Of a stretch of 32,231 nt of DNA, positions 19,911 through 29,467 are shown one piece after another. The translations under genes and the position numbers were made by a program. A model generated the notes under the pieces. It ran no database searches and was not told the origin of the DNA. It saw only the letters and a list, made by a program, of their open reading frames with translations. The stretch spans positions 1 to 32,231 of the forward strand of contig CAJFVS010000066.1 in assembly GCA_904420505.1 (NCBI GenBank). The letters are read 5' to 3'. This DNA is from Candidatus Alloruminococcus vanvlietii (GTDB lineage Bacteria > Bacillota > Clostridia > Oscillospirales > Ruminococcaceae). Within the stretch, counting starts at the first letter, position 1. Each line of letters opens with the position of its first letter.

Positions 19911-20534
19911 ATGAAAATTGCTGTATTAGTGGAACTGAGCACCGCACACCGCGCACAAGTGGTGATGGAAGAAGTGAAAAAAACCGGCCATGAGGTGTAC
20001 AACGCCAGCATGTCTTCGCCGGAGGACGAGTTGCAGCTCAATTACCTGCAAACCGGCCTGATGAGCGCCATTTTATTGAACACCCATGCGGTGGATTTTG
20101 TCATCGGCGGCTGCGGCACCGGCCAAGGCTACTTGATTAGCGCCAACCAGTACCCCAATGTATACTGCGGGCATATCCTTTCACCGCTGGATGCCTTTTT
20201 GTTCTCCCAAATCAACGGGGGCAACTGCGTGTCGCTGGCCTTTAACGAAGGCTGGGGCTGGGGCGGCGAGGTCAACCTCCAGTACATTTTGGAAAAACTG
20301 TTCTGCTGCCCGGTTGGCGGCGGCTTCCCGCGCGAGCGCGAAGTGCCCCAGAGAACGTTCCGCGAAAAACTGTGCAACGTATCGGTTGCTACCCACAAGG
20401 ATATGGAGCAGATTGTAAAAGATTTGGACCAGGATATGGTAAAAGACTGCTTTAAACAACCGGTATTCTGCCAGCTGTTAAAAGATGCGCATGACCCGCT
20501 GGCCGACCGTTTGCTGGCTACATACGCAAAATAA
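19911..20534 (+). CDS. RpiB/LacA/LacB-family sugar-phosphate isomerase, long divergent form
   Basis: A 207-residue protein related to ribose-5-phosphate isomerase B and galactose-6-phosphate isomerase. The family's CGTG motif is clear in FVIGGCGTGQGYLISANQYP, where the Cys acts in catalysis in RpiB. The N-terminal SDHAG motif of classical RpiB is missing; the equivalent region reads AVLVELSTAHRA. It is also about 55 residues longer than usual RpiB, with a C-terminal part containing CNVSVATHKDMEQIVKDL. It may therefore act on a different sugar phosphate. The ATG at 19911 has AGAGAGGG about 7 nt upstream. It lies 22 bp after galM and is followed by a terminator. Confidence 0.87.
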   Translation: MKIAVLVELSTAHRAQVVMEEVKKTGHEVYNASMSSPEDELQLNYLQTGLMSAILLNTHAVDFVIGGCGTGQGYLISANQYPNVYCGHILSPLDAFLFSQINGGNCVSLAFNEGWGWGGEVNLQYILEKLFCCPVGGGFPREREVPQRTFREKLCNVSVATHKDMEQIVKDLDQDMVKDCFKQPVFCQLLKDAHDPLADRLLATYAK

Positions 20535-20550: not shown

Positions 20551-20582
20551 AAGTGGCGCCGTGTAAAGCGGCGCCATTTTGT
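20551..20582 (+). terminator. Terminator of the galM-isomerase unit
   Basis: TGGCGCCG/CGGCGCCA (20554-20561 with 20569-20576) with a 7-nt loop, followed by TTTTGTTTTG. Confidence 0.92.
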
Positions 20583-20674: not shown

Positions 20675-20703
20675 TTGACATTTGGATAGCGGTTTGGTAA
20701 AAT
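20675..20703 (+). promoter_or_regulatory. Promoter of the ECF S component / methyltransferase unit
   Basis: A perfect TTGACA (20675-20680), a 17-bp spacer and TAAAAT (20698-20703). Confidence 0.85.
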
Positions 20704-20707
20704 ACAC

Positions 20708-20800
20708 CTATGCCCAAGAAGGGTGTGAAAAAACCGGAATGTTAGCCAAGAAGGCACAGGCGGCTTTAGGCGGCCTTGTTTTCTTGGCTTCTTTTTTGGG
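20708..20800 (+). promoter_or_regulatory. Structured leader with attenuator hairpin (candidate riboswitch)
   Basis: The leader starts just after the promoter. It contains a small hairpin ACACC/GGTGT (20704-20708 with 20721-20725 approximately), an A-rich stretch with ACCGG, and then a large hairpin closed by AGCCAAGAA/TTCTTGGCT (20744-20752 with 20781-20789). A T-rich tract (20790-20797) follows. A terminator before the first gene means transcription is probably attenuated. No known riboswitch consensus was recognised; preQ1-I was considered because of the small hairpin and A-tract but its conserved loop is absent. Confidence 0.55.
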
Positions 20801-20817
20801 AAAAAAGGGGTAGAAAT

Positions 20818-22058: not shown

Positions 22059-22415
22059 ATGGCGGATAAAGCCGATAAAAAACAAAAAATAGCCCAGTAC
22101 AAAGCACGCAAAATCACCGGCGGGGTGTTTTGCATACGCAATACCCAAACCGGCAAGAGCCTTCTTATGGCCGAGCGGGATGTAAAAGGCAGCCAAAACC
22201 GGTTTGCGTTTTCCCAAATGACCGGAAGCTGCGTGCATATGGTTTTGCAGCAGGATTGGAAAACCTATGGCGCCCAGGCGTTTGCATTTGAAGTGCTGGA
22301 GGAGCTGGAAAAAAAGGAAGACCAGACCGACCGGGAATTTGACCAGGATTTGCAAACCTTGCTGGAGATGTGGCGCGAAAAATTTTCAGGGGAAGAATTG
22401 TATAATAAGGTTTGA
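22059..22415 (+). CDS. Small GIY-YIG nuclease-fold protein
   Basis: A 118-residue protein. The N-terminal GGVFCIRNTQTGKSLLMAE corresponds to the first strands of GIY-YIG domains. It is followed by GSQNRFAFSQMTGSCVHM and QQDWKTYGAQAFAFEVLEEL, which carry the Arg and Glu expected in the fold. Small proteins of this kind are frequent in Firmicutes and usually annotated as GIY-YIG nuclease family; their biological role is not established. The ATG at 22059 has GAGGAGG 8 nt upstream; a TTG two codons earlier is too close to the site. No nuclease partner or mobile element is near. The cupin promoter begins inside its last codons. Confidence 0.82.
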   Translation: MADKADKKQKIAQYKARKITGGVFCIRNTQTGKSLLMAERDVKGSQNRFAFSQMTGSCVHMVLQQDWKTYGAQAFAFEVLEELEKKEDQTDREFDQDLQTLLEMWREKFSGEELYNKV

Positions 22416-25251: not shown

Positions 25252-25773
25252 TTAAAACGATATATTCTTGCGCAGGCGGCGCAGCACAAACGAACCCAGC
25301 GCAATTTTGGCGGCGTCCCCCAGCAAAAAGGGCACTACACAGGCCATTAAAGCGGGCAAAAGCTGCGTATGGGTGGAAAAGCAATACCAGGCCGTGCCCA
25401 GCGCATAGCACGCGGCCAGGCCCACCGCCATGGACAAAGCGCTTTTTAAAAAACTGTCGCCCAGCTTTTGCACCAGCAGCCCGCACAGCAGCGCGGCCAG
25501 CAAATACCCGATGATATATCCCCCCGTAGGCCCTAAAAGGGTGCCCACCCCAGAGCGGAACATGGAAAACATCGGTATGCCCACCAGCCCTAAGCACAGG
25601 TATACCGCCTGGCTAATCAAGCCGCCAACCGGCCCTAACAAGCCGCCGGCCAAAAACACCGACAAAGTAGCCAGGTTAATCGGCACCAGCCCCGGCATGG
25701 GGATGGCAATTTGAGAGAAAATAGCGGTTAACGCAGCAAACAGCGCATAGCCCGCCAGTTTTTTTACGTGCAT
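25252..25773 (-). CDS. bioY: BioY biotin transporter (ECF S component)
   Basis: A 173-residue membrane protein with about six helices that binds biotin for uptake, alone or with the ECF module. The BioY signature is clear: TLSVFLAGGLLGPVGGLIS, YLCLGLVGIPMFSMF and GVGTLLGPTGGYIIGYLLAA (the GPTGGY motif). The ATG at 25773 has GAAGGGT about 8 nt upstream. It has its own extended -10 promoter in the 96-bp gap after the HAD gene. No biotin synthesis genes are in the window, consistent with dependence on uptake. A BirA-type operator was looked for and not found. Confidence 0.95.
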   Translation of the reverse strand: MHVKKLAGYALFAALTAIFSQIAIPMPGLVPINLATLSVFLAGGLLGPVGGLISQAVYLCLGLVGIPMFSMFRSGVGTLLGPTGGYIIGYLLAALLCGLLVQKLGDSFLKSALSMAVGLAACYALGTAWYCFSTHTQLLPALMACVVPFLLGDAAKIALGSFVLRRLRKNISF

Positions 25774-29323: not shown

Positions 29324-29339
29324 CGCAAATGTACGTTTG

Positions 29340-29438
29340 ATGCAGATGCTTCCCTACGTTGGCATTATCCAAATCAGGTAAGGTCGAGGGGCACACCCCT
29401 CCTCTCAGCCTCCTGTTGGAAGCTCCCTTGCGTATTTT
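29340..29438 (-). ncRNA. TPP riboswitch (THI element)
   Basis: On the minus strand the conserved parts occur in order: AAGGGAGC, then GGCTGAGAGGAGGGG with the CTGAGA motif, a P3 stem GAGGGG/CCCCTC, ACCTGATTTGGATAATGCCA and ACGTAGGGAAGC. These are the thiamin pyrophosphate-binding sequences of the THI element. The predicted transcription start lies directly at the 5' edge. Binding of TPP should favour the downstream terminator and shut off thiD-thiW-thiM-thiE-HAD. Confidence 0.97.
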
Positions 29439-29467
29439 AGCGTATCACACCTGCCATCGTTTGTCAA
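29439..29467 (-). promoter_or_regulatory. Promoter of the thiamin operon
   Basis: Minus strand TTGACA (29462-29467), a 17-bp spacer and a weak -10, TACGCT (29439-29444). Confidence 0.6.

Follow-up and report, generated by a model that had tools for sequence, protein, structure and literature searches.

Small hairpins that share one loop are found in pairs in the guanidine-II (mini-ykkC) riboswitch, where two of them, carrying ACGR tetraloops, lie upstream of a terminator or a start. The leader described here likewise has two small hairpins with a common loop; however, that loop is NGAA or ANGAA and not ACGR. LarR is the DNA-binding regulator of the lar operon and of a nickel ECF transporter in Lactobacillus, and our leader resembles that system in its targets, lar genes and nickel transporters, but differs from it in being an RNA element. 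With the NiCo and cobalamin riboswitches it shares the property of being a cis-regulatory RNA on metal or corrinoid genes.

The ANTAR regulators, for example EutV of the eut operon, act at sites that are described in the accessible text of PMC8934654 as two hairpins with hexaloops whose first base is A and whose fourth is G, the second hairpin overlapping a terminator, so that binding blocks termination. Paired hairpins with matching loops, the second overlapping a terminator, are also the plan of our leader, and antitermination through tandem hairpins is already known from ANTAR. The leader nevertheless departs from the ANTAR site of that text in having loops of 4–5 nt (NGAA or ANGAA) instead of A1/G4 hexaloops; its linker ranges in relatives from a few nt up to about 80 nt, and it tracks genes for the uncharacterised protein DUF3842, not ANTAR genes. 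As to the pathway concerned, the accessible parts of PMC11770544 and PMC7583248 have the nickel-pincer nucleotide (NPN) made by LarB, LarE and LarC from nicotinic acid adenine dinucleotide.

The leader of the S-component operon and its relatives

The DNA analysed (the window) is a stretch of 32,231 nucleotides from Candidatus Alloruminococcus vanvlietii. The original prediction had placed a strong promoter, a short hairpin, an A-rich stretch, a large hairpin with a T-tract and a ribosome binding site ahead of an ECF S-component gene, and promoter scanning, RNA folding and direct reading of the sequence found all of these where it had them (Table 1), including the distance of about 35 nt from promoter to terminator arm. 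The predicted RNA begins with hairpin P1 or has it close to its 5' end, and GAAAAAA follows directly 3' of this hairpin. Hairpin P2 sits within the 5' arm of the terminator as an alternative fold to it. The terminator stem spans about 20744–20789 and its T-rich tail TCTTTTTT positions 20790–20797; AAAAGGGG and then the S-component ATG follow. The sequence CCAAGAAGG is present in two identical copies, one in P1 (20714–20722) and one in the terminator 5' arm (20746–20754). The 120-nt leader has a minimum free energy of -45.2 kcal/mol versus -30.6 (sd 4.0) in 200 dinucleotide shuffles (z -3.7), none of which folds as well. A simple terminator scan missed this terminator, which was detected by RNA folding and by R1, a covariance model built on P2 and the terminator.

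Table 1. Features of the leader and its operon in the window, and relatives' loci with a uridine-kinase-like gene
Feature	Position	Strand	Basis and remarks
Sigma-70-type promoter TTGACA-17-TAAAAT, extended -10	20675..20703	+	11/12 matches; TG precedes the second hexamer
P1 hairpin TATGCCC-AAGAA-GGGTGTG	20709..20727	+	Script call; homologues covary
A-rich P1–P2 linker	20728..20744	+	Read from the sequence
P2 hairpin GCC-AAGAA-GGC	20745..20755	+	Script call; homologues covary
Intrinsic terminator	20744..20797	+	Folding; R1 model match 20742–20795
Ribosome binding site region AAAAGGGGTA	20803..20812	+	Read directly
ECF transporter S component, PF12822	20818..21342	+	Pfam, 60 bits (cut-off 30.7)
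SAM-dependent methyltransferase, PF13649	21358..21933	+	Pfam; same predicted operon as S component
Uridine-kinase-like loci	L016, L024, L026, L031, L065, L067, L076, L078, L084, L096, L097, L098, L101, L107		

Comparison with PDB gave no match for the window's S component and only generic methyltransferases for its neighbour. Elsewhere in the window lie an RpiB-like protein gene (19911–20534, + strand; equivalog PRK09273, 225.7 bits against a cut-off of 137) with its own terminator at 20551–20579, a 118-aa open reading frame (22059–22415, + strand) that has no Pfam or NCBIfam match, an open reading frame on the - strand (25252–25773) that by eye resembles a second, BioY-like ECF S component, and a TPP riboswitch (29333–29439, - strand) that scores 60.6 bits, above the gathering score.

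We drew S-component homologues from whole genomes and named contigs and compared their upstream regions, using a script that asks for two hairpins with C-(A)NGAA-G loops at suitable spacing and nothing else, and that was written before DUF3842 was noticed; locus L094, with 71 nt upstream only, was dropped from the counts. Tandem hairpins were found upstream of 30 of the 133 homologues, versus a mean of 0.24 and a maximum of 2 in 50 dinucleotide shuffles. The attenuator-like leader that had been proposed is thus conserved among relatives: in these P1 lies just 3' of the promoter and P2 within the terminator 5' arm, and in the window and relatives alike terminator and P2 are mutually exclusive. 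The loop shared by both hairpins is C-(A)NGAA-G, 4 or 5 nt long. Hairpin number and spacing vary widely, some leaders (e.g. L026, L023) carrying a third such hairpin, and the loop differs in a few variants recognised by eye (L016, L107, L067, L097, L011). The conserved part of the leader is therefore two or more separate 4–5 nt loops at variable spacing, and the small or stem-sharing aptamer that had been envisaged gives way to a leader with no compact aptamer.

Covariation among the homologues' upstream regions, which had been suggested as a check, is present in both stems. All five P2 pairs vary on both sides (21 cells versus 8.6 in shuffles). For P1 we counted 32 cells versus 8.8 in shuffles among 15 pentaloop sequences and 40 versus 13.1 among 16 tetraloop sequences, counts that are biased towards structure because the P1 rows were picked for forming hairpins; the shuffle test on the 133 homologues is free of this bias. 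There can be virtually no doubt that the leader is a genuine regulatory element. No second tandem leader was seen in the window's own genome among the 30 loci and 2 window sites viewed out of 55 CCANGAAGG sites.

The original prediction had made this the leader of an S component and a methyltransferase together. Most leader-bearing loci have no adjoining methyltransferase of this kind, and for this reason we assign the leader to the S component and reject the methyltransferase as the regulated core. Its statement that the leader matches no consensus familiar to it agrees with our searches, in which the window leader and the leaders of 20 relatives' loci all stayed below the gathering score of every Rfam family, guanidine-II and NiCo among them. 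Sub-threshold matches were at chance level, with guanidine-II not among them, and the NiCo and cobalamin riboswitch models had no match over any leader examined. Known riboswitches were rejected on these grounds. A single cobalamin riboswitch (38.7 bits) does occur at L268:5693–5872 (+), near a lar operon of genome G104 and away from the leader.

Co-occurrence with DUF3842

A DUF3842 gene is a neighbour of 11 of the 46 leader-bearing loci, and lies immediately 5' of a leader in genomes G137, G156, G174 and G067. Leader and DUF3842 gene are also both present in Lutispora thermophila and in Clostridium cadaveris. DUF3842 was searched in the same genomes after it had turned up as a neighbour. Among 111 S-component loci from whole genomes, all 23 that the script called are in DUF3842-positive genomes, versus none of the 67 loci in DUF3842-negative genomes (Fisher p 5.5e-12). 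The script left 21 loci of DUF3842-positive genomes uncalled; when calls by eye are included (18 loci, 17 of them listed ahead of the DUF3842 search and one, L103, added after it), the count becomes 41 of 44 versus 0 of 67, the exceptions being L028, L054 and L102. Genome G102 is DUF3842-positive, yet no leader is visible at its S gene or its lar genes.

A tree was built from 88 S components of whole-genome loci, from which the most distant proteins were excluded; on it the leader and DUF3842 are gained and lost together, with 17 changes required for DUF3842 and 18 for the leader. The best tree holds 18 independent pairs, and no random pairing went the opposite way; 3 of the pairs are on strongly supported branches, and in these leader and DUF3842 are never opposed, but they are too few for a sign test there to reach 0.05. 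Model R1, run with stricter filters than in its first run (below), gave 7 matches in 6 of 60 DUF3842-negative genomes, all of them plain terminators without P1, and by the same method 38 matches in 28 of 42 DUF3842-positive genomes.

The predicted structure of DUF3842 (pLDDT 94.7, pTM 0.90) has NAD-dependent dehydrogenases and FtsZ as its closest known structures (Z up to 9.8), and its predicted fold is Rossmann-like; the family begins with an invariant D-G-x-G..G, and its profile had three matches among PDB sequences, the best at E 0.27. No RNA-binding protein is among the structural matches of the model, which carries no weight against RNA binding. DUF3842 tracks LarA, being present in 43 of 55 LarA-positive genomes (p 1e-14). 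From its co-occurrence with the leader and the proximity of the genes we think, on balance, that DUF3842 is the RNA-binding factor that acts on it. Searches of a literature in which most subscription papers lie outside coverage found no description of DUF3842, and none for nickel-pincer with riboswitch.

Leaders upstream of lar and nickel genes

Of the 70 DUF3842-positive genomes of the family, 33 have no S-component match, and 29 of these have LarC. Model R1 was first run on 38 genomes, 35 of them DUF3842-positive without an S locus of the set and 3 controls. It gave 28 matches, of which 23 loci were read, and six have P1 as well: three stand before larE (G164, G175, G082) and the others before a NikM/CbiM-like gene (G156), a NikB-like permease gene (G137) and a gene for a nickel/peptide binding protein (G075). 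Locus L226 (G004) has P2, with P1 not clear, and the remaining loci read look like plain terminators. Later scans found the leader before NikA-like genes in G020, G065 and G152 and before larE in G174. In G137 the DUF3842 gene is flanked by two leaders, one before larE-larB-larC and one before a nik-like transporter, and the G193 operon runs larE-larB-larC-NikM-like with more ECF genes.

The script called a leader directly before larE at 9 of 29 lar loci in DUF3842-positive genomes versus 0 of 13 in negative ones (p 0.038); 4 of the 20 uncalled positive loci have a leader by eye (G174, G014, G008, G150). These counts omit L307 (which duplicates L254), loci that lack LarE or LarB (L256, L261, L262, L271, L273, L287, L290, L297, L306), and partial LarE matches without 230 nt upstream (L263, L288, L298). 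The Lar proteins score above their NCBIfam cut-offs (LarE 240 bits against 150, LarB 292 against 175, LarC 220 against 90), and the NikA/B/D-like proteins belong to the nickel/peptide family, with scores below the curated NCBIfam cut-offs. The leader thus very probably belongs to a nickel or NPN regulon that is wider than the S component. The lar region of the window's own genome, on contig C38, has no script-called leader. On contig C84 of that genome (G000; L261, 1–1151) LarC is split in two overlapping frames, 124–711 and 705–1112; frameshifting in larC is known in Lactobacillus.

Proposed antitermination, its rivals and the transported substrate

On present evidence we lean towards the leader being a protein-dependent transcription antiterminator of this regulon, with DUF3842 as its probable RNA-binding sensor. 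By default the RNA would fold into the terminator and the operon would be off. A trans factor, most probably oligomeric DUF3842, would bind the C-(A)NGAA-G loop of P1 as it exits from the polymerase, and the same factor would next bind the matching loop of P2, which in the window is weak on its own since it has only three pairs. Holding P2 would keep its bases from the terminator and so allow read-through into the S-component gene. The signal would probably be too little nickel or too little NPN, with the Rossmann-like DUF3842 as sensor; a nucleotide-binding fold could recognise NPN, given its origin from nicotinic acid adenine dinucleotide. The signal may be something other than NPN, because 18 of the 70 DUF3842-positive genomes are without both LarA (E below 1e-8) and LarC.

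The original prediction read the leader as a possible riboswitch for the S component. What stands of this is a conserved attenuator outside Rfam that is tied to the S component; the riboswitch part is only partly supported, because protein-dependent antitermination is the best explanation of separate, variably spaced loops in a leader that is limited to DUF3842 genomes. A guanidine-II-like riboswitch of two small hairpins, with NPN, a precursor or nickel as its direct ligand, would account for the whole regulon (lar genes, nickel transporters and S component) by one ligand, its same-loop hairpins have the guanidine-II precedent, and DUF3842, if merely a co-occurring pathway protein, would be expected to track LarA as it does. 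Indeed the fold of DUF3842 suggests nucleotide binding or an enzyme, and co-occurrence would be expected of a pathway enzyme too. We consider this explanation unlikely, however, since a self-sufficient riboswitch would not require DUF3842 and the leader is absent from 13 lar and 67 S loci of DUF3842-negative genomes, and since loops of 4 or 5 nt, with variable hairpin number and spacing, are unusual for an aptamer.

It is less probable still that the hairpins are the target of another RNA-binding protein, such as an ANTAR regulator, and that DUF3842 just belongs to the same pathway. The architecture with its second hairpin inside a terminator is shared with the ANTAR sites of PMC8934654, and ANTAR genes are common (42 of 61 genomes, including one in the window's own, G000), but the A1/G4 hexaloop rule given in the accessible text of that paper is not obeyed by 4–5 nt loops ending in GAA. 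Moreover, two leader-bearing genomes, G038 (95% complete) and G001 (84%), gave no ANTAR match, although in these genomes missing sequence may be the cause, and many ANTAR-bearing genomes have no leader. ANTAR regulators were rejected as the trans factor on this loop rule and distribution. Finally, NGAA-type apical loops occur in plain terminators as well, as would suit an ordinary constitutive attenuator or terminator that answers to no specific signal; we regard this as highly improbable for a paired, spaced and covarying element that recurs so far beyond shuffled expectation and that is associated with DUF3842 as well as with lar and nik genes.

The regulon also bears on what the S component may carry. 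DUF3842-positive genomes have the S component only (29), LarC only (29), both (8) or neither (4; p 1.7e-8), which looks as if import had replaced synthesis. The S component is present in 18 of 24 LarA-positive LarC-negative genomes versus 5 of 31 that have both; it is also common where LarA and LarC are lacking (77 of 122 genomes), so that NPN salvage is one possible role for it among others. A uridine-kinase-like enzyme (PF00485 in L031) is encoded 3' of the S component in 14 of the 46 leader loci, which suggests salvage of a nucleoside. The S genes of the methyltransferase type (window, G020, G084, G102) are all in LarC-positive genomes. Nickel, NPN and a precursor nucleoside are possible cargoes. 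A bolder proposal, which we offer tentatively and think rather doubtful as a whole, is that DUF3842 is the founder of a new group of RNA-binding antiterminators whose Rossmann-like pocket senses NPN, a niacin-derived mononucleotide, and whose RNA targets are tandem C-(A)NGAA-G hairpins, and that the S component of the window, partnered by a uridine-kinase-like enzyme or a methyltransferase, takes up NPN or a precursor nucleoside, which would make it the first salvage system for this cofactor.

What was an orphan leader is thus defined as an RNA family whose regulon can be tested, and a function is predicted for DUF3842. For gut and anaerobic Clostridia the family offers a first clue to the control of nickel-pincer cofactor genes, as well as one to the possible cargo of this class of ECF S components, and the alternation of LarC and S component makes cofactor salvage directly testable.
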